From positions 5,742,861 to 5,806,860 of the forward strand of contig OX422190.1 of assembly GCA_949130485.1 (NCBI GenBank): 64,000 nt of DNA, in the 5' to 3' direction. Under the pieces are notes generated by a model, which saw nothing but the letters and a program-made list of their open reading frames with translations, made no database searches and was not told where the DNA came from. The position numbers and the translations under genes were made by a program. Below are positions 6,490 to 48,751 of this stretch, one piece after another; positions within the stretch are counted from its first letter, which is position 1, and every line of letters begins with the position of its first letter. Source of the stretch: Agelas oroides. Its lineage: Eukaryota; Porifera; Demospongiae; Agelasida; Agelasidae.

Positions 6490-7001
6490 GATTATTAACA
6501 CATCTCAGCCCGTCAGGAGGGATGGGTCAACATAAATTGCATATAAATTTTTGCATGGTAAAGAGTTAAATGAGGACCCTGTAAAAGTATGGACTATCAA
6601 ATTTGGAGGGGTTGCCATCGCACAAGCTGCCTGCTTGGAACATAATCTGGTATCTGTAATAGCTCTCTATTACTGTGTGAAGAAAATGTCTGATGTGTCT
6701 TAGTACTGTTGAAAGATAAACCGTAAGGTTTGTGAGGGAAAACCTATCTCAACAAGTCAACATGCAGTCATTGCTCAAACTTTATACCAGTCACTGAACC
6801 TCAACTGTGTTGAACTACACAGCTTTTGTCGGACCATGCAGGCAATGCACAACAATTCAATGTTTCCAATCAGTGTAAGACTGTATGAGACAGCTAATCA
6901 TGGTTACATCTAGTTTGTGTTTCATGGTAGCATGAATCTAAAGATGTGTTATCTCCTTTGTTGTCGCCATTTATGTGATGATGTATGTTTCCTGTCCACA
7001 G
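6490..7001 (+). repeat. Intron segment duplicated with the RTK last exon (copy in RTK-A)
   Basis: About 500 bp directly upstream of the last exon aligns with 48200-48751 in RTK-B, including GGTATCTGTAATAGCTCTC, CATGCAGTCATTGCTCAAAC and CATGGTAGCATGAATCTAAA. Intron and exon were therefore duplicated together as genomic DNA, not by retroposition. A G run of 4 here is 18 in the RTK-B copy. Confidence 0.88.
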
Positions 7002-8686
7002 CACCAATACCCACCCCTTCCCAGACTGATGGAACAATCACCACACCTGTCAGCAGCACACAACCCACCAATAATCCCCCAAGTGATGGAGCAACTACCA
7101 GATCAGTCATCATAGTAGTAGCTGTTGTGATCATACTTGTTGTCATTGTAGTTGGAGTCGTCATTCTTGTGGTCCTCCTCAGGGCCAAGAAGAGGAAGCA
7201 GAGGTTAGTAATCAACAAGCTTCAGAATGTCATGACAGAAAAGGAAGACTTTGAAATGAAACTGAAACAAGGAGATACCACTGAGGTAGAGGCCAGTTCA
7301 AATGATAACCAGCCACCATATGCAGAAATACAAACAGAGGCACCACCACAGGTACCTAGCAAGTCTAAAGAACTAGTGGAGCACTTGACTGGTTGGTATA
7401 GTGAAATTGAACCAGAAAAAGCTGATATTGAACATACCCTCCCTGCAAAGCCCCCCAGACGTGTTAGTCTCTCAGGTCCCATGTCTGAAGAAATGGAGTC
7501 CAGTCCTGTGTATCAAAATAGGAACCAACACCATGTTCTTACAAATACCACAAATGTCCCACAAGGAAATGACATCTACACTGTACCAGACACCACCAGC
7601 TCACATACAGTTGACAGTGGAAACTATGAGACAGTGTATAGTGAGCCAATCCAGCCTTCACTCTTCACAGATGCAGTTGAAACTCTCAGTGACTCTGAAG
7701 ATTTGCATCCATATGCCAGGGACTCTGAAGATTTGCATCCATATGCCCCCATTTACACCGTCCCTATCAACCTGCCCGAGAGTAAAAAGTTGCTTTTAAA
7801 AGTCTTTGGTAGCAACATTCAGGAGATCCATGAGCTTGGAACGGGGCAGTTTGGCGAGGTGATTCTAGCTGAGACAGTTGGACTGAGTGCAAAAGATCTG
7901 AGGTGGAGTGAATCAGATGATGACAAGAGCAAGTCAATGCTAGTCGCTGTGAAGAAACTCAAATCAGGTGCTCCAAGTACAACAAAAGAAGCCTTTGAGA
8001 AAGAGGTCAGTTTCATGTCAAGATTGAGTGATAGAAATGTCATTCGTATACTTGGAGTCTGCTATGAGGACACTCCTTTCATTATGATGGAGTACATGGA
8101 TAAAGGAGACCTCAACCAGTACCTTCAAAAGTTCAAAGTAGTGAACACAACTGATTCGGAACCACAAGATCTGATTACAACCAGCACCCTGGTTCATATG
8201 TCCACACAGATTGCTAGTGCTATGAAGTACCTCGCATCACACAACTTTGTCCACAGAGACCTGGCAACACGCAACTGCCTGGTGGGCCCAAACTACCTGG
8301 TGAAGATATCAGATTTTGGCATGAGTAGGAGTCTGTATGACTCTCACTACTATCGCATTCATGGACGCTTTGTCCTTCCTGTTCGTTGGATGGCATTTGA
8401 ATGCTTTTATGGTAAATTCTCACAAAAGTCTGATGTGTGGGCATTTGGTGTTACCATGTGGGAAATCTTCACTCTTGCAAAGGAACAACCATACAGTAAC
8501 ATGTCTGACAAGCAGGTCATTGAGGATGCACTCAAAGGTAAAAGTCGCAAGACATTGGCTAGACCAGACATGTGCCCACACAAAGTGTACAAAATCATGC
8601 TGGAATGCTGGGCACACAACTCTGAGCAGCGAGCAACATTTGAGCAACTCTTTCAACTCCTGACCTCCGTTCACCATAATGTCTAG
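7002..8686 (+). CDS. RTK-A last exon: stalk, transmembrane, juxtamembrane and tyrosine kinase domain
   Basis: Membrane receptor tyrosine kinase, C-terminal exon. The 3' splice site is tgtccacag before 7002 and the exon enters in phase 1. Order: a short Thr/Pro/Ser stalk with one QPTNNPPSDG unit, one transmembrane helix (about 7106-7180, almost all V/I/L), a basic stop-transfer AKKRKQR, a long juxtamembrane region with candidate SH2 docking tyrosines (YSEI, VYQN, VYSEP, IYTVP), then the kinase. Catalytic parts are all present: glycine loop GTGQFG, VAVKK lysine (codon 7952), HRDLATRN aspartate (8258), DFG (8312), activation loop YDSHYYR, and WMAFE. The kinase resembles discoidin-domain-receptor kinases most closely, but no discoidin domain is visible. 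Stop TAG at 8684-8686. A 30-bp in-frame direct duplication (7691-7750) doubles a DLHPYA tyrosine motif that is single in RTK-B. No second Ig exon was seen between 303 and 7001. Confidence 0.93.
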
Positions 8687-9687: not shown

Positions 9688-10712
9688 CCCTTTGAACGCG
9701 GAAGTGATCTTATTCATGACAGTTTATTAACGCGGAAGTTGTTCCATATCAACGTTATTGACTCGAACGGTTTTAGTGACAAGCGTGCTAACAAGTCTTT
9801 GGCTGTTCTAGTGACTTGATTTGTATAGATAGGGTGCAAATAGGCTGGACAAGTTTATCTAAATGACTGATAAGTGCGTAGTAAGTCATTTCTACTTGTT
9901 TGAAGCCATTTTGTGCTGACTATACATTGTAGCTTCGAGCGGTTGGAAACGGTGCCGATTTTCTCACCTGATACCCCTAGCCACGGTAAAATCAGCCGAT
10001 TTACAAGTTATTTGAAGCTATTACTCCTACCTGAAGTCAAATGTGGAGAACGCTTGCTCCCTGTGGGCGAGAAAAAGCTTTGTGTTTGGCAGCCCTCGGC
10101 TCATTGACGATACCCCGCGAATAAGTACCGCCTCTTCCTGTCTTTCTAGCCGATGATGTCAGTCAAAAGGTGTGGCCTAGCCTCATTAGCACTTATCATG
10201 GAGGGGCCTACTCTCAAATCTCGTTAAGCTTCTTAGCTTCGTGCGGAAAGCGCACGAACTTATCGTGTTTTTTCACAGCTGTTCATGTTGCATTACGTCA
10301 TCATTACGCCTTCTGTTGAATATTCATAAGTAATTCGTTTCACAGCGGTTCGTGCGTGTTGAATATTCATAATCAATTCGTTTCACAGCATACATTAGAC
10401 CGAACAGTGTGTTGGTCGTCTGTTGTGGCTTGTTGGCTAAATGATTAAAGGTTAGGGTTAGGGTTAGGGTTAGGGTTAGGGTTAGGGCTGGGGCCAGGGA
10501 TTGCACTAGGTGTGTTTCTTTTTTTTTTCCTGTAGTGTTATAAGTGTGGTGAACACATTTGTCTTCGTTGGTACGGTAAGTGCGCGGCGGGGTGCGCGCG
10601 ACGGAGTGCGCACGACGGGTTACTTATGAATATTCAATAGGTGACGTAACCGCCACATGAACCGCTGTAAGTTTAATGTGACCATATATATATGGTCACC
10701 GCGTTCAGGGGG
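9688..10712. mobile_element. TTAA-flanked TIR element with internal telomere-like repeats
   Basis: TTAA lies at 9684-9687 and 10713-10716. Left end CCCTTTGAACGCGG, right end CCGCGTTCAGGGG. The right end also contains the palindrome ACCATATATATATGGT. It is a relative of 4892-5700. The interior has inverted TGAATATTCATAAGTAA segments and a (TTAGGG)n run. No transposase frame is recognised. The 4-bp TTAA duplication is typical of piggyBac and Kolobok superfamilies. Confidence 0.8.
10450..10487 (+). repeat. Interstitial telomere-like (TTAGGG)n
   Basis: 38 bp of uninterrupted GGTTAG/TTAGGG repeats inside the TTAA element. TTAGGG is the usual animal telomere unit. Confidence 0.95.
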
Positions 10713-13219: not shown

Positions 13220-13400
13220 TATGTCATGCCACATTTATATATGTCACTCCACATTTATAAATGTGGTGTCACATGTACAAATGGGGATCACATAATATTA
13301 TCATACAAAATGTGGGATCACATTTACAAATGTGGGATCACATTTACAAATGGGGTCACACCTACGTAAATATGTCACATTTACAAACATTGCACTACAC
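13220..13400. repeat. Degenerate short tandem repeats (ACATTTACAAATGTGG type)
   Basis: Several imperfect repeats built on CACATTTACAAATG with intervening GGGATCA or GTCACA. Simple-sequence-like, non-coding. Confidence 0.7.
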
Positions 13401-13584
13401 TGATTTTTGGCACAAATGGTGCCCCATATTTCCATGACATAAGGTCAGTATTGGAGGTCAAGCACCAAGTGTGCAGGTCAGTACTGATCTGTTAGTGTGT
13501 TGACATGAGTGACATGAACACATACAGTGACACTTTGAATAGACATTTCTCACTAAACTTTTTATCGATTTCAAACTTACGGTG

Positions 13585-13704
13585 ATTACACCCCAAGATG
13601 CGACCCGTATAATATAAATTACACCCCAAGACGCAACTTTTAAAGGACCCGAGTAATTACACCCCAAGATGCAACTTAAAGGACCCGCGTAATATTACAC
13701 CCCA
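13585..13704 (+). repeat. 33-38-bp tandem motif, upstream side of LINE insertion
   Basis: ATTACACCCCAAGATGC-type units start at 13585, 13618, 13656 and 13694. They are followed by AACTTAAAGGACCCGCGTAA in the complete units. The last copy stops after ATTACACCCCA at 13704, exactly where the retrotransposon begins. The rest of the unit resumes after the poly(A) at 17164. Confidence 0.9.
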
Positions 13705-16700
13705 CACGCTAGGTCGATAGTCCAAGAGGGAAAGACGTGCCCTGCCTACACCATGCCCTCATGCTGCCCGTGTAACGGCAGCGGCCGGTGTAAGAACTGT
13801 TCCTGTGTGAAAGAAGGAAGACTATGCACTAGCTGCCTACCAGGACGAAAGGAAACTTGCTCAAACATAACACAAGTACATGCACATGGTAGGACAACCA
13901 CACCACATCCGAACCAAACGAACCAAACTCGGAGAGAAACCGTCGAACCCGAGGGGACAGTTAACACTAGTGACCACACTACCACGGACTGTCATGGTGT
14001 CATCCCACCTGCTGGAGATGTGAACCCACCGTACCCAACCCCTGCTCCATTGGGTAGCCCAATGCATGCTGCTAATTCAGGAAATCAGAGAGAAACAGCT
14101 ACACTTCATGCAAGAAGCATGAATAGCAACGACTCTGTTACATCTCTTCCTTACAAACTACCATCCTACATCACACTGCCCTCCTCAGCGTTTGTCTGGA
14201 GTGAGAGTGTGGATGGAGCTGACTTTACTCAGATGATTTCAGCGGCCTATGCAGAAGTGGTGCATTGGCGACATAATCTCTTTCTCACACCCTCAGGCAA
14301 GGCTGGCAAACTGTTCACCTCAGAACTTGCAAGGCTGTTTCGCGCATATGGCGAAGGATCTGGCCTCGAACCCATCGCCCTGAAGGCAGCCATGGTCATG
14401 CCTGCACTGCTCCTTCAAAAACCACACTCTTCATCAAAAGCCCGTGAGCATGTGGTGTGCCTACAACGACGACTCGATTCTTGGCAAATAGGTGACATCA
14501 ACAATCTCGTTATTGAGGGACGCACCATACAACACCGCCTCAAACAGAATCACAGGCACGCACGCAGTAGTAAGGAGGAACAAACTACACGCCTTTTCAC
14601 CAAACTGATGCTGCAGGGAAAGGTCAGGGCTGCCCTTCGAATCCTCACAAACGAATCAAAAGGAGGACCACTCCCCATTGACACAAGGCTGAGTACACAT
14701 CCAGATCAACCGATTACTACTGTCCGTGACGAGTTGCTAAAAAAACATCCACCAGGACAGCCAGCACACCCTGACGCCCTTATCTCCTCAACAACCCCCA
14801 GACCAGTGACTCACCGAGTTGTTTTTGACTGCCTAGATGGTGCAAGCATCCGTACTGCTGCCCTCCACACCAATGGCTCCGCTGGTCCTTCGGGGATTGA
14901 TTCAACTGGGTGGAGACGCCTATGCACTTCTTTTCAAAATGCATCGGCAGACCTGTGCAACAGTTTAGCTTCAGTTGCAAGGAAGTTATGCACTAACTAT
15001 GTTGATCCTCGAGGTATAGCTCCACTTACTGCTAGCCGTTTGATAGCCCTTGACAAATGCCCAGGTGTACGACCAATTGGGATTGGAGAAACCTCCCGCA
15101 GAATTATTGGCAAAGCCATTCTTGCAGTTATTAAGTACGACATCCTAGAAGCTGCAGGCTCTCTCCAACTTTGTGCGGGTCAGGAGGCTGGTAGTGAAGC
15201 TGCCATCCATGCAATGCGTAGTGTCTTCCAAGATGAGCAATCCGAAGCCGTATTACTTGTTGACGCTACCAACGCATTCAACAGCCTGAATCGTCAAGCT
15301 GCCCTACAGAATATCCACCATCTCTGTCCTTCACTTGCTACTGTCATAACGAACACATACAGAGAGGATATACAGCTGTTCATTGATGGTGAAACCCTTC
15401 TCTCATGTGAGGGGACGACACAAGGAGATCCCCTGGCCATGGCCATGTATGCCATAGGCATCCTACCCCTCATTAACCAACTACAGTCCACTGATGCAAA
15501 GCAAGTGTGGTTTGCTGACGACGCCACGGCTAGTGGCCGCCTTGAACAGCTTCATGAGTGGTGGGTGAAGTTGAACAACCTTGGCCCCGCATTTGGATAC
15601 TTTGCCAATCCCAGCAAAACATGGCTGATCGTGAAAGAGAAACACCTGTCAACAGCAACAGAGAGATTTCTGAATACCGGAGTGAACATCACCACCGAAG
15701 GAAAGAGACACCTTGGGGCTGCTCTTGGCTCGAGGTCCTTTGTTGTAAGCTACATACAGGACAAGGTGAAGGAATGGACATCTTCCATCCAGAAGCTTGC
15801 ATCCATTGCCACGACCCAACCACATGCTGCCTACTCCGCTTTCACACATGGCTTAGCAAGCAAGTGGACATACTTCCTCCGTACCATCCCTGAAATCTCA
15901 GACTTACTGCAGCCCCTCGAAGAAGCAATCAACCTCCACTTCATCCCTGCTCTGACTGGAAAAGGCTGTGTTACCACCGCTGAGAGAGACCTCTTTGCTC
16001 TTCCTACCCGACTCGGTAGCCTAGGCCTTACGAAGCCAACGGATACAGCTGCCCACGAATTTTCCTCTTCTCAGAAAGTCACTGCTCCTCTTGCCACTCT
16101 CATTCTCCTGCAACAACATGAGATCACCTTCGACACCATCCGAGAACAACAATGTGCAAAGGCTGAAATCAAGCGACTCAGACAACAAAAACAGGCTGTA
16201 ACAGCCACACAGCTACGGACTACACTACCAACGCACCTCCAGCGTGCAATGGAACTGGGTAGTGAGAAAGGTGCCTCTTCCTGGTTGTCCGTCTTACCCA
16301 TTGAGGAGCATGGATTTGCACTGCATAAAGGAGCATTCAGAGATGCCCTGTGCCTTCGGTATAACTGGCAGCCGGCCAACCTACCCAACGATTGTGTCTG
16401 TGGTCATTCCTTCTCGGTTGATCATGCTCTCAGTTGCTCCACTGGAGGCTTCCCAAGCATCAGACATAATGAGCTGAGGGATTTCACAGCAAAGGTCATG
16501 ACCGAAGTGTGCCATGACGTGTGTTTAGAGCCAACACTGCAGCCCCTCACAGGTGAAACACTCAGATATGCCACAGCCAACACGGAAGACGGTGCCCACC
16601 TTGATATCAGTGCTCAAGGCTTCTGGGACAACCGGTATCAGCGAGCATTTTTCGATGTAAGGGTCTTTAACCCCAACGCTCAGACTCACCGGAAGCTCCA

Positions 16701-17163
16701 GCTAGCCTCAGTCTACCGAAAACAGGAGAGAGAGAAGCAGAGAACGTACGAACAGCGGATTCGCGAGGTTGAACTGGGTACATTCACTCCCCTTGTGTTC
16801 TCGACTTCTGGTGGAATGGCGAAATCCGCCTCCGTGGCCTACAAACGGCTTGCATCCCTGCTGGCAAGGAAGCGAGACCAACCGTACAGCCTTGTTATAG
16901 CGTGGCTACGTTGCCATCTGAGTTTTTCACTCTTGAGGTCAGCCATCACCTGTCTGCGAGGGGCCCGTTCGTCTTCCGGACACGCCGCACACAATGGGCC
17001 GATTGACCTAGTAGTCAGCGAAGGTCAAGTGCCCCTTGAAAAGCTATGAACTAAGTTGTCATTTTTCACACAGTTGTTTTCTATATATTTTTTATTTCTC
17101 CTTTGTAGTTTGCTCTATATACGTATTATCATAGGATATTATGTACGGGGAAAAAAAAAAAAA
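13705..17163 (+). mobile_element. Non-LTR retrotransposon (RLE type), apparently full length
   Basis: Short 5' leader (48 bp), one long ORF (13753-17049), a 3' UTR of about 100 bp and a 13-A tail (17151-17163). The 5' junction is inside the tandem motif (…ATTACACCCCA) and the 3' junction resumes with ATGCAACTTAAAG. The element thus sits within one repeat unit, with only about two target bases (AG) unaccounted for. No long direct repeats or LTRs are seen. The intact ORF and clean tail indicate a young copy. Confidence 0.88.
13753..17049 (+). CDS. LINE polyprotein: Cys-rich N-terminus, reverse transcriptase, zinc knuckle, restriction-like endonuclease
   Basis: 1098 residues, uninterrupted, starting at an ATG 48 bp inside the element. 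Residues 4-38 form a cysteine-rich cluster (CCPCNGSGRCKNCSC...) that could bind nucleic acid. The reverse transcriptase occupies roughly residues 370-700. It has motif A LLVDATNAFNS (Asp504), the TTQGDPLAMAMYA motif (QGDP 557-560) and the catalytic FADD at 587-590, in place of the common YADD. The C-terminus has CVCGHSFSVDHALSC (881-895) and RHN (904-906). Then LDIS (Asp951) and FFDVRVFNP (Asp968) fit a PD-(D/E)xK-type endonuclease as in R2/R4/NeSL-like LINEs. Similar C-termini are widespread in cnidarian and sponge predicted proteins, as far as I recall. It would nick the target and copy its own RNA there. Clade assignment is uncertain. Confidence 0.88.
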   Translation: MPSCCPCNGSGRCKNCSCVKEGRLCTSCLPGRKETCSNITQVHAHGRTTTPHPNQTNQTRRETVEPEGTVNTSDHTTTDCHGVIPPAGDVNPPYPTPAPLGSPMHAANSGNQRETATLHARSMNSNDSVTSLPYKLPSYITLPSSAFVWSESVDGADFTQMISAAYAEVVHWRHNLFLTPSGKAGKLFTSELARLFRAYGEGSGLEPIALKAAMVMPALLLQKPHSSSKAREHVVCLQRRLDSWQIGDINNLVIEGRTIQHRLKQNHRHARSSKEEQTTRLFTKLMLQGKVRAALRILTNESKGGPLPIDTRLSTHPDQPITTVRDELLKKHPPGQPAHPDALISSTTPRPVTHRVVFDCLDGASIRTAALHTNGSAGPSGIDSTGWRRLCTSFQNASADLCNSLASVARKLCTNYVDPRGIAPLTASRLIALDKCPGVRPIGIGETSRRIIGKAILAVIKYDILEAAGSLQLCAGQEAGSEAAIHAMRSVFQDEQSEAVLLVDATNAFNSLNRQAALQNIHHLCPSLATVITNTYREDIQLFIDGETLLSCEGTTQGDPLAMAMYAIGILPLINQLQSTDAKQVWFADDATASGRLEQLHEWWVKLNNLGPAFGYFANPSKTWLIVKEKHLSTATERFLNTGVNITTEGKRHLGAALGSRSFVVSYIQDKVKEWTSSIQKLASIATTQPHAAYSAFTHGLASKWTYFLRTIPEISDLLQPLEEAINLHFIPALTGKGCVTTAERDLFALPTRLGSLGLTKPTDTAAHEFSSSQKVTAPLATLILLQQHEITFDTIREQQCAKAEIKRLRQQKQAVTATQLRTTLPTHLQRAMELGSEKGASSWLSVLPIEEHGFALHKGAFRDALCLRYNWQPANLPNDCVCGHSFSVDHALSCSTGGFPSIRHNELRDFTAKVMTEVCHDVCLEPTLQPLTGETLRYATANTEDGAHLDISAQGFWDNRYQRAFFDVRVFNPNAQTHRKLQLASVYRKQEREKQRTYEQRIREVELGTFTPLVFSTSGGMAKSASVAYKRLASLLARKRDQPYSLVIAWLRCHLSFSLLRSAITCLRGARSSSGHAAHNGPIDLVVSEGQVPLEKL

Positions 17164-17206
17164 TGCAACTTAAAGAACCCGCGTAATATAATATACCTAA
17201 TTAACA
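17164..17206 (+). repeat. Remainder of the tandem motif after the LINE
   Basis: ATGCAACTTAAAGAACCCGC follows the poly(A) directly, completing the unit that was interrupted at 13704 and leading into the first ~530-bp unit. Confidence 0.85.
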
Positions 17207-20200
17207 CACAGGCCAGAGGAAGCGTTGGACATCCAATCTGAGTTGATATTCGTAAATGGCAGGTGCACTTACCCCAGGAATGAAACTTTGGTACACCAAC
17301 AACTCTCCCTTCACCAGCTACACCATCACAGTGACTCCCGAAGCGATTTTTCGCATACGTGACGTCACACGTTCAATATATACCTACGTATAAAATCATT
17401 GCGTGTACCATGCTTCGGGCTGATATTACGCGCGTAATGCGCGAGTATAAAGCCGGTGAAGGGGTGCCTCGCTATTCACGATTGATAAACTGATGTCTGG
17501 CTCCTCCCTTGAGGGTAAAGTTTTTTTAAGAAGCCACAAAACTTGAAACTCTGAGGCTTTCGACTTTAGGTAATAAATCCTGATCTCTAAAGCCTAGCAG
17601 TGAACTTTGCTTTTCCTAAAACCTACTAACAAAGATTTTACCTACGTATAGCACTGAACTCTAAAGTGTTCGAGCCAGGGTAAACCTGCAGCACTAACCT
17701 CTTATGAGCATCTTGGGGTGCGGTTACTTTGCTCGATAAATAATATAACTAACCCAATATAATACACAGGCCAGAGGAAGCGTTGGACATCCAATCTGAG
17801 TTGATATTCGTTAATGGCATGATGCACTTACCCCAGGAATGAAACTTTGGTACACCAACAACTCTCCCTTCACCACTGTCACCCCTCACAGCGACTCCCC
17901 GAAGCGATTTTTCCGCTTACGTGACGTCACACGTTCAATATACCTACGTATAAAATCATTGCTACGTGTATTGAAGCGCTACCATGCTTCAGGCTAATAT
18001 TATGCGCGTAATGCGCGTATAAAGCAGGTTAAGGCGTGCCTTGCTATTCACGATTGATAAACTAATGTCTGGCTCCTTCCTTGAGAGTAAAGCTTTTTTT
18101 TAAGAAACCACCAAACTCTGAACTGTAAGGCTTTCTATTTCAGGTCTAGTAGCAGTCAACTTTGTTTTCCTAAAGCCTACTAACAAAGATTTCACCTATG
18201 TATAGGCACAGTATAGCACTGAACTCCAAAGTGTTCGAGCCAAGGTAAACCTGCAGCACTAACCTCCTATGAGCATCTTGGGGTGCGGTTACTTTGCTCG
18301 TAATATAACCAATATAATTACACCCTAAGATGCAACTTAAAGGGCCCGCGTAAATAACTAATATCATACACAGGCCGGAGGAAGCGTTGAACATCCCATC
18401 TGAGTTGATATTCGTTAATGGCATGGTGCACTTACCCCATGAATGAAACTTTGGTACACCAACAACTCTCCCTTCACCAGCTACACCACTGTCACCCCTC
18501 ACAGCGACTCCCGAAGCGATTTTTCCGCTTACGTAACGTCCACGTTCAATATACTACGTATAAAATCATTGCGTGTATTGAGCGCGCTTCGGGCTGATAT
18601 TACGCGCGTAATGCGCGCGAGTATAAAGGAGGTGAAGGCGTGCCTTGCTATTCACAATTGATAAACTGATGTCTGGCTCCTCCCTTGAGGGTAAAGCTTT
18701 TTTAAGAAACCACAAAACTCTGAACTCTAAGGCTTTCCACTTCAGGAAAATTTGCAGCACAAAATCCTGATCTCTAAAACCTACTTCAGGTCTTGTAGCT
18801 AAGTAGCAGTGGCCTACCAGCAAAATTACCTCTTACAAGCATTAACCATCTTGGGGTGCGGTTACTTTGCTCGTAATACAATATAATATAATCAGAGAGT
18901 CGGTAGACTCTCTATGTATAGGGATGGTGCCGACGCGCAACATACTTAAGCAAAAGCCGTATAACTTCCCCACAAACACGCTAAAAGCTTATTTAAGAGC
19001 CCAGACATCCTCTTTGAGTGCCTTTGTGATCAGCAAGACTCATATAAGTGGCCAAAAGCCACGCGGAAGACAGCTAAACGCAAAAGTGTGCGGTATCAAA
19101 AGTACCATTTTTCGTATTCTTTCTTTGTTCAGACCACTTGTCAAACGACGATAACTCGAAAACGGCTCAAGTACTCACCTTGATTTTAGCGCGAAACAGA
19201 TGCTCATCACAGCGCTCAGCTTCCCAATCACTCAGCGTCTTCATAGCTTCAAATTCACCCTGGTCAACAAAAGCCATTCACAACACTCCGAGGCTGCTGT
19301 CCGTTGCTTAGGACGCCATTTTATAATTTTGTACGCATGCGCACACGAAGTCTCGTTCCCAGACCAAAGACCACAGTCATTGGTCTGGAAGCGAGACTAG
19401 TACACAGGCGAAATGGCCAGCTGGCAGTACGCATGGCTGGCACGGTCTTTTCCCCACGCGGCTTTGGGCAAGGCTTATGAACACCACGTAGGTAAGGCGC
19501 TACCTACTTGTAGCTACACTAAAAATAGCCTACTGACAGCTTTAGTGAACTGTAAAGCTAGGATGGTCAGTTGTCAGTATGATAGTTTTCTGTGCTGACA
19601 ACTGAACATGAAATTGGTTTCATACAGTTTGGTAGGGAGAGCAGTTGGCCCTTCATCAGGTTCTAGCTGGCTATATTACACATTATTATTATATGCCTGG
19701 AACTACCTCTAAACTGTCAATGCCTTTTCAAGTTCTGGTGTTGTGGTTACACTTGAAATATTCTTCTTAGGCTTAGGTCTAACAGTAACTGAGATTAACC
19801 TCAAATAAAGTACAGAAACAAGACTTTAAAAACATTAAAAATGTGAAAAGATGTAGGGATGGCATGCCAAAAAGTATGCAAACAAGGTAGGGATAATGCA
19901 TGAAAGCAAAGGTCAACATATTGGCAAAGCCCCACCCCTACATCTTTTTCACACTACAGTTAGAGGGTCTTCCTAAAACGTACCACAAGTTCACAACCTT
20001 TACTGGCAGTTCATGCCTGTAGCCTCGTTCTCAGGCCACTTCCTTCTCCCACGTCGCCTGGGAACGAGGCTAGTATGACCCTCTTGGTAGCATTATGTTA
20101 TACGGAACCTCTTCAATGCAACAACTTAAGCAGTGAGTTGGAGTAGACTGCAAACTTGTGATAGTAAGTGTCATTAAAATACATGGCATGGTTTTAGCCT

Positions 20201-21520
20201 CGTCCCCAGGCCACATCCTTCTCCCACATGCCGGCTCAGCAACGAGGCTAATATGATCTAGCAGCATTGCATCAGCTGTAGTGTGAAAAAGATGTAGGGA
20301 TGGGGCTTTGCCAATATGTTGACCTTTGCTTTCATGCATTATCCCTACCTTGTTTGCATACTTTTTGGCATGCCATCCCTACATATTTTCACATTTTTAA
20401 TGTTTTTTAAGTCTTGTATAATATATTATAATACGCAGGCCAGAGGAAGCGTTGGACATCCAATCTGAGTTGATATTCGGTAATGGCATGGTGCACTTAC
20501 CCCAGGAATGAAACTTCGGTACACCAACAACTCTCCCTTCACCAGCTACATCACTGTCACCCCTCACAGCGACTTATTTCCGCTTACGTGACGTCACACG
20601 TTCAATATACCTACGTATAAAACCATTGCGTGTATTGAGCACGCTATGGTGCTCTGGGCTGATATTACGCGCGTAATGCGCGAGTATAAAGCACGTGAAG
20701 GGGTGCCGCGCTATTCACGATTTGATAAACTGATGTCTGGCTCCTCCCTTGACGGTAAAGCTTTTTTTTACAAAGCCACAAAATCTGAACTCTAAGTCTT
20801 CCTACTTCAGCTAAATTTGCAGCACAAAACCCTGATCTCTACTTCAGGTCTTGTAGCTAAGTAGCAGTGAACTTTTTTTTACCTACGTATAGCACTGAAC
20901 TCTAAAGTGTTCGAGCCAAGGTAAACCTGCAGCACTAACCTTCCATGAGCATCTTGGGGTGCGGTTACTTTGCTCGTAATATAACTAACTAATATAATGC
21001 ACAGGCCAGAGGAAGCGTTGGACATCCAATCTGAGTTGATATTCGTTAATGGCATGATGCACTTACCCCAGGAATGAAACTTTGGTACACCAACAACTCT
21101 CCCTTCACCAGCTACACCACTGTCACCCCTCACAGCGACTCCCGAAGCGATTTTTCCCCTTACGTGACGTCACACGTTCATACGTATAAAATCATTGCTA
21201 CGTGTATTGAGCTAGCCAGGTAGGTGAAGGGGTGCCTCGCTATTCACGATTTGATAAACTGATGTCTAGCTCCTCCCTTGAGGGTAAAGCTTTTTTAAGA
21301 AACCACAAGACTCTGAACTCTAAGTCTTCCTACTTCAGCTAAATTTAACCCCAGCCTTCTCTTTCAGGTCTTGTAGCTAAGTAGCAGTGAACTTTTTTTC
21401 CTAAAGCCTACTAGCTAAGATTTTACCTACGTACAGCACTGAACACTAAAGTGTTCAAGCCAAGGTAAACCTGCAGCACTAACCTTCCGTGAGCATGTTG
21501 GGGTGCGGTTACTTTGCTCG
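17207..21520. repeat. Five tandem units of about 505-543 bp, interrupted by a foldback element
   Basis: Units start with (C)ACAGGCCAGAGGAAGCG at 17207, 17765, 18369, 20434 and 21000. They end with ATCTTGGGGTGCGGTTACTT...GCTCG at 17735, 18300, 18873, 20976 and 21520. Each contains TGACGTCA-like and TATAAA-like sequences, an alternating GCGCGTAATGCGCG stretch and an A/T-rich run. Between units 2 and 3 (18317-18355) lies a copy of the ATTACACC-type motif. The end motif GCATCTTGGGGTG is the reverse complement of the motif core CACCCCAAGATGC, so each unit plus spacer looks like a TIR element in tandem. Minus-strand open frames of up to 110 codons recur but have no recognised domain. Confidence 0.88.
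18891..20417. mobile_element. Foldback-family element, copy 1 (left arm plus centre)
   Basis: Begins ATC then the perfect hairpin AGAGAGTCGGTAGACTCTCT (18894-18913). An arm to about 19815 is followed by a centre with its own inverted ends (GATGTAGGGATGGCATGCC at about 19846 and its complement near 20385). It ends AAGTCTTGT at 20417. The arm matches, in reverse complement, 30085-30920 and 32510-32663 of copy 2. The right arm is missing here. It splits the ~530-bp array between units 3 and 4. No transposase is recognised. Confidence 0.82.
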
Positions 21521-24377
21521 AAATAATAATAGTATTATCTTGCAAACAGTCCGCTGCAAAATTACACTATTAAACAGCTTTCTAAAAAGTAATCCAATCT
21601 ACAGTTCAGCAAATTTGATTTTTTTCAGGCCCTATTTTAGTCAGCATGCTTGTAATTATCCAAACAGAAGACGATGCTATCCTGACAAATTCAGCTTGCA
21701 GATTTACACAGAGCAGTAGCTACCACCGTTTTATACGAGGCGGATGCGGTTCAAGTTCAAAGTTCAAAGTTCAGGGTTAGTCAGTCTTGTGAGAGCTTGA
21801 GTCCATGGATGCGCGCGTACGAACCTGCATATAAAGGTGAAAGTTTAATTAACTCGCGGCGCCACATGAGCGTAAAAAGCGAGCCTGACTAAGACGGCGA
21901 GGTGGAGACGTAGCAGAAAAAAGCCATGGTTGCTCCTGCTAGGCTTAGGGTGAGTTGGTTTCTCATTGAGTTCAGCATCACGACGCGTATACTCGAGTAT
22001 TCTTGAGGAGCTCAGAAGGAGGCTCCTTGTTGTGGTAGTGTGCTATCAAGCGTTGTAGTTGGTTGCTCTAGGGTAATTCTGAATCAGAACGTACAAAAAA
22101 TCGTCTACAATAACAGAACTGAACTAGTGGTCAGAATTAGTCGGCTGGAATGGTGAACTGGCATTTTCCCCCTTTTTCGCTGTGTGTAGAGTACTGGCAT
22201 AAATGAACATTGAATTTCAGCAGCTATACACAGTAATTACAAGTTCCAATGAGGATAAAGCATAGACAAATCGGTTGAGACTCACAAGATGCATTATATA
22301 TCTCGTGAGACCCTTCTTGGTGTAGAATGAATGGTAGTAGATCTAGGGGTCATGATACACTGGTACCCATACATTAAGCCTTTGTATTTGTTTTTCAACA
22401 ATATAAGACACAGCCTAGGAAATTGTGTAGCTCTATCTACTCATACTAGTTGCATCTGAATTACAGTTTGCTACTAAACGTTATTGTCCCTAGAATTCAA
22501 TGTTTACTACTCTAGACACACCATTTTTTCCCTTAAAATTCTAGTGTAAAATGTATGCACGTAAGGATGCAAGATGCAAGCTCTAAACAGCACCATTTCC
22601 TCACACAACATGAATTTTAGCAAGCTAAATAACTTTAGATAATGCATAACGCTATCATGTGAGAGTCTAGCTAGACTCACATAAGATATTCAGTATTGGC
22701 AATGTAGATGTTGCTCGAGTCATGCTGCATGTTACTTGGTTATATGTACTGATTACTGGGATACACAAGTATGACAGTGTAACAAGGCTAGCAGCTACAA
22801 CTAGCTAAGCAGTTTCAGTGAGTTCACCAGACTGAAAAACTTCAACTGTAGTGACTAGGGGCTTGGAAGTGTGGTTTTCTATACTAAAATAAGGGAGGAG
22901 AAGGCCATTGCACACTGGTTATAAAGATCCCTATTGTTGCCATCATTTTGCTCTGTATGGCTGTTCATGATAGTCTAGCCTGTTACCCGGTGCACCTTAT
23001 GTGCACTGATGTGCTTCCAGTTAACCATTTAACCACCAATGATGCCTTTTGGCATTGTCTGACTTTGGCTGCATGTTATCAGTTGGCGCAATCCGTTTTG
23101 AAGATAGATTTTGCACTAGCAAAAAACAGTGGGATAGGGGGAGGTGGGCAGGCATATTCAAGACATACCATGCACATGGTGGCTGCCTTGGATGGCTATA
23201 GAACAGCCTCAGTTGGCACTGGCTGGACAATTTCTCACCTTGTTAGCACAAATGGGCCAGAAACCACTCCTCTCCCCTTGTAGGGGCACCATTCCAGATC
23301 CGTAGGCAGTTTTTAGTCAGGTGGAGCGCTCGCTGGTCGGGGAACCCTGACCATTGAAAGCTTGCTAATGAGTGGGTGTGGTTAGGATCATGAACCTACA
23401 GAGAATGTGTCAAAGAAGCTTTGACTCAAGTTTCCAGTGCTATGTAGCTCCAAGCGGAAGTGGAAATATGGAATCATGAGACATGGAGGATCATATTTAT
23501 TGATGACTACAGTTGCCTCCCTGGCTGGTGTATGCAATTTAGTAGCCTTTTTGTCAGTCTGCATGTTTATGTACAAGTGTCACTTAAATTAATACTCATA
23601 ACTCTCAACACTGTTGAGCCAACTTCCACTTGTATCTTACATGGGCTAGTGCTTTTTAGTCCAGTCTACCTGTAGGGGTCTCCCACAACTAGCATGGCTA
23701 TCTTGCTGGATGTCAATTGGTACCTGCCATGTCAGATAGGTGTCAGAGTCTCCCGTGAGGCTTCCATTATGCCATCTGTTGTAAAAGCATAACACAATCT
23801 GTAGTGTTTACACAGCTTATCTGCTGATCAACTTTCCCACATGGTGGTTGTACTGGGAACTAACACCACAGCTAACACCTTAGTGGAGAAATACTGTTTC
23901 CAAATCAGGACAGGTGGGGTGGGTGCAGAAACAACAATTACTTTGTAAGTTCCGTTAGGCTCTGGAATGCCAGTATAGTTAATTGTAACGGCATTAAACT
24001 CTCTTGTAAAGAGTTCTTGTATCGTAATGATTAATTTCTCTTTCGAGTTCCTTTTATATTAGCTTTATGCTATTAGGAACCTGCACATGATATTGTTCAT
24101 GATGTTTATTATAAAAATAAAATTTAAAAAAGCGCAAGTTGCAGCTGTTTATACAAAGACACAGCCAAGTTGCTACTGTGTTTTCCAAAGGTTTCTATAA
24201 CAATATTCAGTGTAGATGTGGTACATATATTATGTTTTTAGAGGTATAACTATCAGAACGTCTGTTCTGGTGGTAGATGTGAAAGGATATTTCTATGTTC
24301 CTATCAGCCCATCTGGAACCTGTAAGGTTATGTTACTACGGAAGTATTTTGATGTTATTGGGTAGGTTGGTGAAGAC
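21521..24377. other. Intergenic, no gene recognised
   Basis: 2.9 kb without a gene I can support. The longest open frame (22948-23283, 111 codons) shows no domain, no splice context and no relative in the window. Some short direct repeats (AAGTTCAAAGTTCA near 21755). Confidence 0.5.
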
Positions 24378-29375: not shown

Positions 29376-29701
29376 AAAAGATGTAGGGATGGCATGCCAA
29401 AAAGTATGCAAACAAGGTGGGGATAATGCATGAAAGCAAAGGTCAACATACGTATTGGCAGAGCCCCATCCCTACATCTTTTTCACACTACAGTTAGGCA
29501 GTGCATGGGGGTCTTCCTAAAACGTACCACAAGTTCACAACCTTTACTGGCAATTCATGGCTGTAGCCTCGTTCTCAGGCCACTTCCTTCTCCCATGTGG
29601 ACTGGGAACGAGGCTAGTACACTCTCTTGGTAGCATTATGTTATATGGACTTCAACAACTTACGTAAGCAGTGAGTTGGAGTAGACTGCAGACTTATGAT
29701 A

Positions 29702-29853
29702 CCGTATAGCGGGAAACTTTCGAGAATTTCGAGGTTTTGTAGCTATTCACGAAATTGGGGGGCGTGGTGTCTTTTGGCGGCGACACTAGCGAGCAATCCG
29801 CGAAAGTTTTCTCCGCGCAAATCTTATTTTTCGCCAAAATTCCCGCTATACAG
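29702..29853. mobile_element. 152-bp MITE with TA target duplication
   Basis: Ends CCGTATAGCGGGAA and TTCCCGCTATACAG with TA on both sides (29700-29701, 29854-29855). The corresponding position in copy 1 of the host element (20162-20163) is an empty TA site (gtgaTAgtaagtg), which proves the insertion. Tc1/mariner-type duplication; no coding capacity. Confidence 0.92.
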
Positions 29854-30979
29854 TAGTAAGTGTCGTTAAAGTACATGGCATGGTTTTAGCCTCGTCCCCA
29901 GGCCACTTTCCTTCTCCCACATGTTGGCTCAGGAACGAGGCTAATATGATCTAGCAGCATTGCATCAGTGTGAAAAAGATATAGGGATGGGGCTTTGCCA
30001 ATATGTTGACCTTTGCTTTCATGCATTGTCCCTACCTTGTTTGCATACTTTTTGGCATGCCATCCCTACATCTTTTTACGTTTTTTAAGTCTTGTTTCTG
30101 TACTTTTATGATGTTAATCTCAGTTACAGTTAGACCTAAGCCTAAGAAGAATATTTCTTTCAAGTGTAACCACAACACCAGAACTTGAAATGGCGTTAAC
30201 AGTTTAGTAGTGGTTCCAGGCATGTAATGATTGTGTAATATAGCCCAGCTAGAACCTGTTGAAGGGCCAACCACTCTCCGTACCAAACATTGTGAAACCA
30301 ATAATTTCATAATTCAGTTGTCAATCACATGACGACTGACCAGCTGCAGCACAGAAAACTATCATACTGACAACCGACCATCCTAGCTTTACAATTCACT
30401 AAAGCTGTGAGTAGGCTATTTTATACTACAAGTAGGTAGCTGAATGCAGCGCATTACCTCTATGTGGTGTTCATAAGCCTTGCCCAATGGAAAAGACCAT
30501 GCGTACTGCCCGCTGGCGATTTGAAGGATTTCACTTGTGTACTAATCTCGCTTCCAGACCAATGACCGTGGTCTTTGGTCTGGGAACGAGACTTCGTGCG
30601 CGCATGCGTACAAAATTAGAAAATGGCATCCTAAGCAATGGACAGCAGCCTCAGAGTGTTGTGAATGGCTTTTACTGACCAGGGTGAATTTGAAGTTATG
30701 AAGACGCTGATTGGTCGTAGAGCTCCGTGCTGTGATAAGCATCAGTTTCGTGCTAAAATGACCGTAAGCACTTAAGCCGTTTTCGAGTTATTATTGTTTG
30801 AACAAAGTGGTCGTAACGAAGAAAGAAAGAAAGAAAGAATACGAAAAGTGGCACTTTGGCTATCGCACACTTTTGCATTTAGCTGTCTTCCGCGTGGCTT
30901 TTGGCCACTTATATGAGTCTTGCCAGGAGCTTATGAGCGGCGAAGCCGCGAAGGAGCGTGTAACTACCGCATATAAAAG

Positions 30980-31905
30980 ATCTGAATGCTGTGCAAGCAT
31001 GGATGAATGCCAACAAGCTAAAGTTGAACCTTGCCAAAACATTTGTAATGCTGATCGGCACAAGGCAAAGAGTGCGTGCTCAGAGGGTCAAAATGGTTGT
31101 TGATGACAGGTTAATCGAACAAGTTTCCACTACCAAATACCTCGGAGTTAAGATCGACAGCTATCTGTCCTGGGAACAACGTATTGACTTCATAGTGTCT
31201 AAAGCCCGCAGCAAATTATTTGCTATCAGGCGAATGATGCCACTCCCCAAAAATGTAACGGAAACACTTTATAAATCCCTTGTTCAACCTCTCCTTGATT
31301 ACTGTGACGTGGCATGGTCCCCAGGAGCTCTCAAACAGGTTGACAAACTCGAGAGAGTTCAAAAGCTTGCAGCAAGAATTGTACTAGGTGCACCAAGCAC
31401 CGCAAGATCAGTTGAACTTTATAAGACTCTAAACTGGTCAACACTTGACCAGCGCAGGAGGTATCACACTGCTACTTATGTTTTTAAGGTTTTGAATGGT
31501 TTATCCCCTCCTTACTTACAGAATACATTTGAATTATCTGTACAGTCATAAGACTAAACGTTGCCTGCGTAATAGCTACCGCATTTACATTCCTTTTGTA
31601 AGAACTACCATGGCCAAAACTAGTTTTTACTACCAAGGTGCTGTTTTATGGAACTCATTAGATCAGTCTTTGTACTCATCTACTACTTTAGCTACTTTTA
31701 AGTCTAGATATTCTAGCCTTTATTTTCCTTAACTAGTTCACATGAACTACCTCTTCTGCATGTTACCTCTACATTTTTGTTAACTGTTGTTCTTTTGGTT
31801 ATTGTTGTTCGTTGTAACCTTGTTGTTTTGTATGTATGCAGGACGTTACTGAAGACCAGCTTATATGTAGCTGATGTAACATTCCTGTCTAAAGAACATT
31901 TCTGA
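30980..31905 (+). pseudogene. LINE reverse transcriptase C-terminal fragment
   Basis: The fragment starts within the RT domain (WMNANKLKLNLAKTFVM...), then TTKYLGVKIDSYLSWEQR and the thumb/C-terminal region (LVQPLLDYCDVAW, LERVQKLAARIVLG), as in CR1/L2/Jockey-type LINEs. The frame breaks near 31548. The last part (GAVLWNSLDQSL..., to the stop at 31730-31732) continues in another frame. A 3' stretch ending ATTTCTGAATCTGAAT follows to about 31905. There is no endonuclease or N-terminus: this is a 5'-truncated copy now enclosed between the TIRs of the element at 30924-32509. Confidence 0.85.
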
Positions 31906-37083: not shown

Positions 37084-38099
37084 GTGAGTAACATTGTTGT
37101 TTACACTTCTGTGAGGTATAGTTTGAGTATGAGTTTCAAGTTCAAGTTTGAGATTTGAGTTCTAGTTGGCACGTGCTGTGTACTTGCACCATACAGTTGT
37201 GCACTTGCAACTGTGAGTTTCTAGTTCTAGTTGACATGTGCTGCATACTTGTACTGTACTAACATGTACCTGTGACTGCGCCAGTGAGAGTGTAGTCAGG
37301 TTGTTTTGTAGACCTCTGATCTTGACCTAAGGAGAAGGAAGCAAACTATGGTAGCCATATCTGTACAAGTGAGAGGAGCAAACCATATAGGGGACTCACG
37401 AGTCATGGCTTGTGTTATGGGTGTATTGGTTGTGGCATTATGAGCTGGAGCAGATTAATTAACACCCTTGAACTGCGGTTGTTGCATATTAGCGACGCGC
37501 GCGGGCATGCACTAAGTGCGACTGTCACAAGTAGCCAAGTTACCTACCGCACAAAGCTAAGAGTAGCCTAGCAAAACTTTGGGGTAAACCAGAACTAGAT
37601 CTCGAGTGGATTAGTTGGGAAATAAATAGTGCAAGGCAATAGGGAGGCAGATAGTAGTGTCTGAACTTTAAATCTTCGCATTTAGTAGTCTTGCATGCTT
37701 CTTGCAAATGCAGTAACTCACAAAAAAAAAACAGTATGGCTATGGCCATACCAGTATTCTGGCTCCTATGGTCTTGTGAGGCTACCATTGGTGGCATTGC
37801 ATTAATTATTTGCACGCAAAGTGCAGATTTATATGCATAAGGGAATTGCGGGTAATTCAGAACCGGTGGTATTTCAGAACACTTGCTGTTACTTCTACTT
37901 CTAAGTCTTCTTAGTACAAAGCACTTAATTGACCAGGTGTGAATCCACTGGGAGTCTTGAGCAAATTTAATAGTATCTACACCCAGATTGCATTCAATAT
38001 AAGGCTAACATTACGCAGAATGCCTACAACTGCAACAAGTTTTTTACAACACAGATAATACAATATTATACAAGACAGAAAAATCATTGAAAATGAAAA
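37084..38099. other. RTK-B intron 2, first part
   Basis: The start resembles the RTK-A intron start (AACATTGT.. ACACTT). Repeats of GAGTTCTAGTTGACATGTGC type near 37150-37260. No gene. Confidence 0.5.
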
Positions 38100-38545
38100 G
38101 AGATGTAGGAATGGCGTGCCAAAAAGTACACACACAAGGAAGGATATAAAAGTGAAGGTAAATACACAAAGCCTCATCCATCCCTACATCTTTTCACAAT
38201 AGAGTGAAGATGTAGGGACGGGGCTTTGCTGAGATAAGCAGCAGTTTTGTGCTAAAAACACGGTGAGTACTCGAACCATTCTCGAATTATTGTTGTTGAA
38301 CTAAGAAGAATGAATAACAAAAATGGCATTTTTGCTACTGCACACTTTTGCGTTGAGCTGTTTTCTGCAAGGCTTTTTGGCAACTTGAAGAGTCTTGCTG
38401 GTCATAAAAGCCCTGAAAGAGGAAGGTTGGGTGCTTAAATAAGCTTTTAGCGTATTTGTGGTGAAGTTATACGGCTTTTGCTTAAGTATTGCATATATTG
38501 CGCGTCCGCGCCAATCCTACATAGAGAGTCTACCGACTCTCTGAT
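38100..38545. mobile_element. Foldback-family element, truncated copy 3
   Basis: GATGTAGGAATGGCGTGCC at 38102 is the centre. It is followed by an arm matching 32510-32663 and ending with the hairpin AGAGAGTCTACCGACTCTCT (38523-38542) and GAT. More diverged than copies 1 and 2, with a large internal deletion. Confidence 0.78.
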
Positions 38546-39930
38546 ATGTTTCTAAATAGCATGGACTATATACTGCAGGGGGGTCAATAGCAGGTAAGCT
38601 GAAGTGTCCAGGTGATGGCTATAGCTGTAGAGGAATTAAAAGTAATACTGTGTATGTGGCAAGACAAAATTTAAAGTTTGTATTAGTACCTAGATAACGT
38701 TCAGTTATTCGTGTCTTTACGACTAAGTCAAACTCTAAAATGACTATAACCTAAATCTTCTGTTGAATTTGGCGCCTTCAAAACCTGCCTTATAAGATAG
38801 TTGTATGTTCGCACCTACTTTGTTAAGCAGCCAAGAAGGTGGCTATTGCAGCAGGCAACCAGCCCGGTTCTTGAGAATCCATAGTAGTCACAGTAGTAAA
38901 CTCAAAGCTCCTTAACACATGTTAAAATCCATATAAGGCAAGTGTGATCTGACACAAGATGGGTACACTAGTTAGACGCTCCATCGGGATCCACTAAGTT
39001 CACCCAACTTGATGTGGTGACGTCATAATTGTGTTGTGCGCATTGCACGTGCAGAGCGAAGATGGAACTGGATCCAGACATGCCGTTGGACATGTAGCTA
39101 GTACTGGGACTTGTTTGCATACCCAAAGTGTTTCAGCATGTTCTTACTTTGTGAGCTAAACTTTTACCTACAGGTAGCTATAATTTTATGGATTGTAGTG
39201 TTACAAGTATTTATTACAGGCAGCATAATTTCTGAAGAACTGTTCAGACTTTTCTAGTTTGTGAGCTAAAACCTCAGTGGTAGCTCTGAGTACTTGTATG
39301 GGGTACAAGTCTAGTCTTTACGCTTCAGTCTAGCTTCACCAGTCTACTTAGCTACATGCAGAATTTTCATCTGGACCCATGCAAGAGGTTTAAGTAAGTT
39401 TGTAGCTTGCATGTGAGCATCTTGGGGTACAGTGGTACTTGACCATATTAGCTGAAAGCAAGCTATGACCGGAAACTTGTCCCTCAGTTAACAACTTGTA
39501 CAAAACCATCGCTAGAAGGCTTGAAGCAAAACAATACACCAAGAAATGCCATAGTCACCATTGTATGCTAGATATAATATATATTGTGCAATCTTGCATA
39601 GATAAAACAGATTGCACTTAGACTGTGATGACTCCATTTGAAAGAGCAGTTGCACTCAGCAATTGATCACATTAATTGCTTACCAGTGGCAAGGTCTGGT
39701 GTTATCAGTGACTTTGTCACACGGGGCTGTGCTTACAGCACAAAGAATGTCGTCATTGTCTTTTAAATCTGGATCTCATGATGCTGATGACATGCTGATC
39801 AGTTTACAAAAGTTTCTTGGGTCAGCAAAGACTCGTTTTTTGTTTGGCTCAAAATTTGACAATTTTGCTTACACAATGTAATTACAATCATGCTTTCTTC
39901 AATCTTCAAAATTGAAGAAAGTGAAAATGC
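38546..39930. other. RTK-B intron 2, no gene recognised
   Basis: Contains the isolated phrase GAGCATCTTGGGGTACAGTG (about 39416), resembling the end motif of the ~530-bp array units. Otherwise nothing supported. Confidence 0.45.
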
Positions 39931-44029: not shown

Positions 44030-47000
44030 TTCTCACCTAAAACATTGATGAAATTGAAATTTCAGTGGGGAAGGTGGGAGGCCGAGCATGAAGCGCGAGG
44101 CGGAGAGATGCTCCCGACACTACTGGTAGGCTGGTGAGCTTCAGTGTTGAGGGGCGAGGAAGCAGGGCGCTTCCGCAAAGTAGCTGGCATGTCCATCGTT
44201 GCTGCGGGGGGTCCGCATTCGCGGTAGACACTTTAACAGTAGACAGCCGAATGGCTTAAATTCGACTGCGGGATGAGTCTTCTTCAGGAGATGACTGGTG
44301 ACTGTCAGGTGAGTCTTTATATACCATGGCTGTCTGACAAGAGATGATACATGAAAGAGGAAAGAGTGCTTTGATACAGGAATAAATATGGGACAAGAGT
44401 ACCGGAAGGGAAGAGTGGAGGAAATGCAATATGTTGTTGGTACATAGAGGTATTGGTGGAAGCAAGGGATCAATCAGGCCAGGGACTTGGTTTCTAGCCT
44501 AGATGCTCATGTTACTCAGGGAGGCCTATGTGATAGAGTATTGGGAATTAAGACCAAAGGAGAGGACTGTGTTAAGTGCCCTGATCCAATGTATCTCACG
44601 AGATAGGAGCTGGTTTCGGGGGCAATGTTCAAGGGGCAGGATTCTCACGTGTGTCTCGAAGCTGTGTCCTCTGGAGCTGAAGTGGCGGTAGATGGGCCAG
44701 GTGCTCTTCCTCTTCTCCTTTGCTGCAGATCTATGGTGGCCAAAGCGATTAAGTAGAGATTTAGAAGTTTGTCCTACATACATTTTGGAACATTTAGAAC
44801 AGATGATGCAGTAGATAAGACTGGTACTTTTACAGGTGAAGGTATCAGTGAGGTAGAAGGGTTGATGTGTAGTGCTGGAATGGATGACGTTGTAGGAAAG
44901 TAGTTTAGGGCAGGTGAGACAAAGTGGGTGATTACATGTTTTTACTCTTTTAGCGGTTGTACTTATCTGCGTGGAACGTCGGCTGTAGGGGGAGGGGGTC
45001 TTCCAAGTGTCTTAGCAGAGACTAGGTGGTTGGAGACTGCTTTTTCTCGTCTGAAGCACAGCTGTGGAGTAGAGAAGAGTTGTGTGAGGTGCACTTCATC
45101 TGTTTATATTGATATTGACATTGGTTGTGAATTTATTGTGATAAACATTCAATTAACATTCCATTAACACTTTTAGACACTCTGGGATTAGAAATTTGAC
45201 ATTAGACATTCTGGGAATGATTCCGCTTGAGTTGGACCTAAGGAACCGAATGGCCTCACCCTTCACCAAGCCCTTAAACACTTCCTTAGGGTGAGAAGAG
45301 GAGAAGTGAAGATACTGGAATGTGCTAGTGGGTTTAAAATAGGTTTAAACATCAAGGATACCAGTTTCTCTAAATCTGCTTCCCTTGTAGATCCGTATGT
45401 CTAGGAACTCAACACTCTCCATGGAGATGGTCCATGTGAAGTGTATGGTTGGGTGGCAGGAATTGAGTCTGCGCAGGAAAGCCTCTAGGGACTCCCTCAA
45501 ACCTGACCATACACAGAGGATGTCGTTGATGTAACGCTTCCAGAGGGCCAGTTGAAGGGGCTCGCTCTCGAGGAACCGTCTCTCCAGGGAGTCCATGAAG
45601 ATGTTTGCGTAGGAGGGGGCCATCTAGGTGCCCATTGCTGTTCCCTGTATTTGTTGGTAGATATGTGTGTGGAAAGAGAAAACATTGCACTTGAGAACTA
45701 TGTCAAAGAGTGTTTGCATAATATCTCGGGGCAATGGGAGAAGATCCCTGTCCTCCAAAGAGCGAAGGCACTCAGAAGTGCCTTCGTCCTGTGGGATATT
45801 AAGGTAGAGGGAGGAGACGTCTATGGTAGCTAAGATGCAGTTCAGAGGGAAAGGGGTAGTTTCTAGGGTAGAGATGATATGGCCTGAGTCTCTAGTGTAA
45901 GAGAGCATTAAGGGTACTAGGGGCTTGAGGTAGTGGTCTAGGAAAGCAGAGATCTTCTCCGTAGGTCCACTACAGCCGCTTACTATAGGTCAGATGCTGG
46001 GGGGATTTTTGTGTATTTTCTTTAGAAAATATATTCTTTGGGTCCTAGGGGTGTTTGGAGGTTTCAAAAATGAATAGGTGTGTTTGTCTACGTAGTTCTG
46101 GGAATATAGGTCGTCTATAAAACGGCCTATATTCTCAGACATATGCTCAGTAGGGTCTCCCAGTAGCCGCCTATATATAGAAGCATCCTGTAAGTGGGAA
46201 AGCCCATTGTCTATGTAGTTTGTGGTATCTTCTACTACGATACACTTCCCTTTGTCTGCCTTCTTGATGGTGAGGTCCGTGTTCCTGCTAAGGGAGTGGA
46301 GGCTCTTGAGTTCCTGTTTGGAGAGGTTAGGGTATGTGGGTGTCATGGGGAAGTTTTAGTGAGACTGATGTATTGCTCAAGTGTAGGATTGGAGGATAAG
46401 GGTGGGATCCAATCCGATTTAACTTTGAACGAGTGTTTGGGTGGGAGTGTTTTATTTTTGAAAAAATGTTTGATTCTGAGGGACCTAGAGAATCTCTCAA
46501 AATCTGACAATAGGTTTTTTATGCTTCGTTGTCTAGGGGTAGGTATGAAGCCAAGCCCTTTGGAGAGAAATCGTTCAGAGGTATGGTCTAAGGGGTGGCT
46601 ACTTAAAATTATGTATCTACTGTTAACCCTATTGGATGTAGAACCTAGGATGTTGAAGTAGCATGTCTGTCTCATGGATTGTCTTATGGCTACCTCATGG
46701 CTGTCTGATGGCCTGCCTTGTGGCTATCTCACGGCCTGTCTTATGGCTGTCACATGGTCTGTCTTATGGCGGTCTCAGGGCCTGCCTTATGGCAGTCTCA
46801 AGGCCTGCCTTATGGCTGTCTCATGGCTGCTGTTGGGGGTTCTCTGTTGCGTGGGGCAGAGCCTCTGGTTGTGGCCATGAGCTGTTGGAGTGTCTGTGTT
46901 AGGTTGAGAAGGAGAGGGGCAAGAGCTGTTGGTGAGGATGGTGGAGTTGGTGGAAGGTGATGTGGTGAGACAGGTAGATGGTGATGGGGTAGGTGTGGAA

Positions 47001-48199: not shown

Positions 48200-48751
48200 A
48201 GATGCACAGATTAGCATATCTCAGCCCCATCAAGAGGAATGGTTCAACATATATTACACATCAAATTTGCATGGTGAATAGTTGCATGAGAACCCTGTGA
48301 AAGCACAGAACTATCGAATTTGGACAAAGTGGGGGGGGGGGGGGGGGGGTTGGCATTGCACAAGTTGCCGGCTTGGAACAAAATGGTACCTGTAATAGCT
48401 CTCTATTACTGTGCGAAGAGAATTTCTGATGTGTCTTATAATGTTGAAAGATAAACCATAAAGTTTTTGAGGGAAAACCTATCTCTACAAGTGAACATGC
48501 AGTCATTGCTCAAACTTTATACCAGTCACTGAACCTCAACTGTGTTGAACTACACAGCTTTTGTTAGACCATGCAGGCAATGCAAAAAATTCTAAATATT
48601 TCCAATCAGTGTAAGACTGTATGAGACAGCTAATCATGGTTACACCTAGTTTGTGTTTCATGGTAGCATGAATCTAAAGATGTTCCTATCTCCTTTGTGC
48701 CTTTTGTTGCAATTTATGTGAAATGACATGATGTGTGTTTTCTGTCCACAG
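48200..48751 (+). repeat. Intron segment duplicated with the RTK last exon (copy in RTK-B)
   Basis: Paralogue of 6490-7001. It contains an 18-G run (48332-48349) where RTK-A has four G. It ends in the 3' splice site ctgtccacag. Confidence 0.88.

Follow-up and report, generated by a model that had tools for sequence, protein, structure and literature searches.

An RLE-type LINE placed exactly within a copy of a repeated 38-bp motif beside a tandem array

Does a LINE that interrupts a short repeated motif owe its position to site-specific target recognition, or did it reach that point by chance? The question is raised by a locus in a 64-kb stretch of Agelas oroides DNA, hereafter the window, in which a full-length element at positions 13705–17162 divides a copy of a 38-bp motif in two. 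The non-LTR element lies on the + strand and measures 3458 bp, with a 5′ leader of 48 nt, roughly 100 untranslated nt on the 3′ side and a terminal poly(A); its ends are defined to within one A on each side. RNA folds computed for these ends offered no lead. Three motif copies precede it on the same strand (13585–13693): a shortened one at 13585, a second at 13618 and a third at 13656–13693. Another copy is found uninterrupted at 18317–18354 (+ strand; 35/38 identical), between units B and C of the neighbouring tandem array, and served as the empty-site reference.

Comparison with these copies defined both junctions. The left half of the interrupted motif, ATTACACCCCA (13694–13704, + strand), is identical to the neighbouring copy at all 11 positions, while the right half, ATGCAACTTAAAGAACCCGCGTAAT (17163–17187, + strand), agrees with that copy at 24 of 25. 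The initial annotation had placed the element exactly inside the motif, and the two halves bear this out. It had also proposed that the unit resumes after the poly(A), which holds for the right half as such, but AG of the intact motif is missing from the split copy, and the halves do not join into a perfect empty site. Target duplication is absent. The loss of target sequence amounts to 2–4 bp, given as a range because an A adjoins both sides; a run of 13 A occupies 17151–17163, and its final A is possibly derived from the target. As the uninterrupted copy at 18317 has no LINE adjoining it, the motif was not brought in by the LINE, and the element is ruled out as its carrier.

Tandem motifs and homopolymers are difficult to assemble, and LINE DNA could have been joined to motif DNA through the repeats or the poly(A) during assembly. 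We regard such an artefact as very improbable. Except for the 2–4 bp, a single motif results when the two halves are put together; furthermore, the left half continues the upstream motif array and the right half runs directly into unit A.

The element carries a single intact ORF of 1098 aa (13753–17049, + strand), which starts with the ATG at 13753, has no internal stop in its 1098 codons and closes with the stop codon ending at 17049. The encoded protein comprises a Cys-rich N-terminus, an RT, a CCHC-like knuckle and an RLE-like region. Pfam assigned RVT_1 to it with an E value of 2.5e-8, and no other family at E ≤ 1. The RT catalytic motifs DATNAF, TQGDP and FADD lie at 15250–15537 (+ strand). 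We assign the RT to the non-LTR subtype on the strength of the terminal poly(A) and the single junctions of the insertion, rather than from a tree. At the N-terminus, motif reading revealed a Cys-rich stretch with CxC and CxxC pairs (13762–13860, + strand), presumed to bind zinc, for which Pfam gives no zinc-finger or Myb family above its cut-off. A ZF/Myb region is described as present in all early-branching LINEs in the pertinent section of PMC5678591.

Downstream of the RT, the CCHC-like knuckle CX1CX7HX3C (16393–16437, + strand; residue 881) occupies the same place, with the same order of residues, as the consensus CX2-3CX7-8HX4C quoted from PMC5678591, but its spacing is one residue short at two points. 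The RLE-like core follows at 16462–16818 (+ strand). Set against the description excerpted from PMC5678591, its residues, assigned by eye from their order rather than with a profile, comprise RH at 904, LD in ANTEDGAHLDIS at 942, FFD at 966 and KQRTY at 995. In the same source, RH starts the first helix, the catalytic K of KX2KY lies in the second helix, the second K of that motif is less conserved, and GXW comes after the fourth strand. The element deviates by L for P in the PD-like motif and by T for the second K of KX2KY; instead of GXW, we found GGM in TPLVFSTSGGM at 1012, at a strand position that is itself inferred.

Comparison of the C-terminal part with Pfam listed no match even at E 10, and phmmer searches of PDB chains returned none for either the entire protein or its RT region. 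Two AlphaFold models, both built without relatives and of low confidence, were inspected for the fold of the RLE region. A 267-aa model showed the order H-E-E-E-H-E at a pLDDT of 37.1, and an 810-aa model showed four short strands and a helix at an overall pLDDT of 36.5. The predicted folds are compatible with an RLE, short of proof. The position of the RLE-like part at the C-terminus of a single ORF also counts for an RLE-type reading. Together with the RVT_1 match and despite the deviations listed above, the RLE-like residues and the CCHC-like knuckle support the earlier description of the element as an RLE-type LINE.

The junctions provide an indication of how the element was integrated. 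They display a short deletion (AG, 2–4 bp) without duplication, the pattern of R2/NeSL-type integration, and the target duplication of CRE and R4 elements was not found at the single junction examined. As reported in the relevant part of PMC3636483, every NeSL element described and the majority of the R2 clade show target deletions, and CRE and R4 elements duplicate their target in all known cases; in the R2 group, such deletions result if the second nick falls upstream of the first one. The R2 element of Blattella deletes 3 nt of its target, according to a statement in PMC7650587. The loss of 2–4 bp fits the R2/NeSL mode. Bottom-strand nicking by the RLE would take place at the junction before ATGC or a single base away, and this nick would prime copying of the poly(A) RNA. 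A cut of the top strand 2–4 bp further upstream would then lead to the loss of the intervening bases.

Insertion of an RLE-type LINE by R2-like target-primed reverse transcription is thus well supported. In its full form, our preferred explanation is that a recent, full-length and probably competent RLE-type LINE inserted once, by this R2-like route, into one copy of a minisatellite-like 38-bp motif next to a tandem array, and we consider this highly likely. Points against it are the single copy, the lack of a PDB match for the protein and of a Pfam match for its C-terminal part, the knuckle spacing, the GGM and the poor models.

To the right of the element, the array consists of five tandem units of about 530 bp (17207–21521, + strand), located at approximately 17207–17741, 17767–18300, 18361–18879, 20434–20979 and 21004–21521; other repeats fill the C–D linker at 18891–20417. 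Longer matches between units are 78–86% identical, and the first ~110 bp are strongly conserved across all five. The box TGACGTCA is present in four of the five units and TATAAAA in all of them, with a later TATAAA upstream of a T run in four. Judged from these sequence features, the units could act as promoters for an unnamed transcript. Known small-RNA genes were also considered for the units and rejected, with no Rfam match falling within them: a scan of 13400–21700 gave five matches at E ≤ 5, each well short of its gathering score, two of them in the element and three in the C–D filler. ARAGORN (bacterial code) found no tRNA in the units and placed three tRNAs elsewhere in the window.

The motif and the units are linked by a 13-bp core, CACCCCAAGATGC. 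An inverted core, with one or no mismatch, marks the right end of every unit (5/5), and the full 38-bp motif adjoins two of the five, on the left of unit A (the copy that the element splits) and on the left of unit C. The proposal that the motif also occurs at the ends of the tandem units therefore stands for the inverted core in all five units and for the full motif in only two. Across the 64-kb window, the core occurs ten times at up to one mismatch, compared with zero or one occurrence per run in 30 first-order Markov simulations (five in total), and is therefore a repeat rather than a chance occurrence. Of these, the occurrence at 39417 is not part of the array. The array itself holds nine uninterrupted cores and the split one, five of them on the + strand and five inverted. 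Only one of the ten array cores is occupied by the element, and none of the five inverted cores at unit ends.

These counts bear directly on the opening question. Under site-specific homing, the reading proposed in the initial annotation, the LINE would recognise CACCCCA/AG/ATGCAACTTAAAG, most of its copies would insert there, and satellite or MITE ends would be its home. Exact placement within a multicopy motif whose footprint makes up just 0.3% of the window argues for such homing, as does the tendency of the clades concerned: four of the five RLE clades, Dualen aside, are characterised as mostly target-specific in the cited part of PMC4640811. The occupancy of the array cores, however, speaks against it, and the comparison comprises a single insertion (n = 1). 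In addition, non-specific elements are known within the R2 group itself, the HERO, EhRLE3 and YURE families and cockroach R2-like elements being named in the sections cited from PMC3636483 and PMC7650587. On balance, we take homing to be a real possibility while leaning slightly against it. A related suggestion, that the N-terminal Cys-rich region reads the motif and thereby makes it a homing site, may be correct, and we advance it with similar reserve.

Alternatively, an RLE LINE with little or no specificity may have inserted by chance into repeat-rich DNA, the motif being noticed because it is repeated. Self-comparison showed that repeats account for 35% of the window once the element is excluded, so that any repeat would be noticeable and landing in one is weak evidence for homing. 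The unrelated repeats in the C–D linker (18891–20417) indicate that the array accepts other insertions as well. Against a chance event stand the smallness of the target and the prevailing specificity of most RLE clades as summarised in PMC4640811. We consider chance insertion an evenly balanced prospect.

Relatives of the element were sought inside and outside the window. A second copy was not found in the window, where tblastn returned, besides the element itself, one match of 22 residues at E 4.9. In viral contigs, pattern matches numbered 1 for the full protein, 1 for the RT core and 11 for the RLE part, none of which tblastn confirmed, and a degenerate GGFPSxRHN-type pattern yielded no confirmed relative there. 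The C-terminal part gave 25 pattern matches in prokaryotic genome contigs, with none confirmed, and tblastn against phages and plasmids at E 0.01 found no relative. Neither the motif and a unit sequence in the viral contig collection nor the motif in the prokaryotic genome contig collection was found. The sequences searched came from viruses, plasmids or prokaryotes, so blanks among them carry little weight for an animal LINE. Similar proteins, with an N-terminal CxC stretch, GGFPSIRHN and FFDVRVFNP, are presumably common in invertebrate databases, a point on which no conclusion here depends. Among the matches listed from the open-licence literature, none described the element or its target.

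With the R2 clade, whose target is 28S rDNA, the element shares a single ORF, the order RT, CCHC knuckle and RLE, and a short target deletion. It differs in its non-rDNA flanks, in which Rfam names no family, in its knuckle spacing and GXW position, in a Cys-rich CxC N-terminus in place of recognised C2H2/Myb motifs, and in the absence of a PDB match by phmmer. Tx1L of Xenopus, which has another transposon, Tx1D, as its fixed target, is a precedent for a LINE with a transposon target; its endonuclease is of the APE type, unlike the RLE here. NeSL, Utopia and YURE are likewise RLE LINEs, and NeSL elements also leave target deletions (as stated in part of PMC3636483), but at the present target Rfam recognises no snRNA, spliced leader or other RNA family. 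YURE LINEs occasionally reside in a U2-derived satellite, and some HERO families and Togen are microsatellite-specific, many HERO being non-specific, as outlined in the material drawn on from PMC4640811. HERO and Togen resemble the element as RLE LINEs; the repeat in our case is a 38-bp motif.

A LINE homing to the ends of a tandem MITE or satellite had been put forward as a new niche. This claim is weakened by published targets, which according to the part of PMC4640811 cited include transposons, microsatellites, telomeric repeats, tRNA genes and spliced leaders, besides the U2-derived satellite; other TEs are also mentioned among LINE targets in an extract from PMC8869645. Homing to satellite or MITE ends would therefore give an already known kind of element a new target. 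It appears rather unlikely that the element represents an RLE LINE lineage outside the named clades, with a divergent knuckle and a Cys-rich N-terminus, specialised on the 38-bp motif at satellite or MITE ends as a genomic safe harbour. Should the motif be the true target, the LINE homing sites would gain a short, non-genic member, and the element, being intact and compact and having a defined cut site, would be handy for studying target recognition. If not, the locus is an ordinary LINE insertion in the repeat-rich DNA of a probable animal.

Several other features were observed in the window. A fold-back element of ~600 bp at 19818–20417, in the C–D linker, has 142-bp inverted ends that are 98% alike, and stretches similar to it lie near 29376–30095 and 38055–38205. 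An ORF at 30964–31551 (+ strand) matches the end of RVT_1 weakly (7e-4, below the curated cut-off) and is probably a fragment of a different LINE. On the − strand, an ORF at 44526–45011 encodes a GIY-YIG domain (Pfam, 2.1e-8) and is possibly the tail of a Penelope-like element. Two related tyrosine-kinase ORFs, at 6914–8686 and 48727–50724, each have a membrane-like stretch as judged by eye and point to DNA of animal type; the latter includes about five internal 66-bp repeats (48828–49170). Finally, six telomere-like GGTTAG repeats lie at 10450–10487, inside the window.
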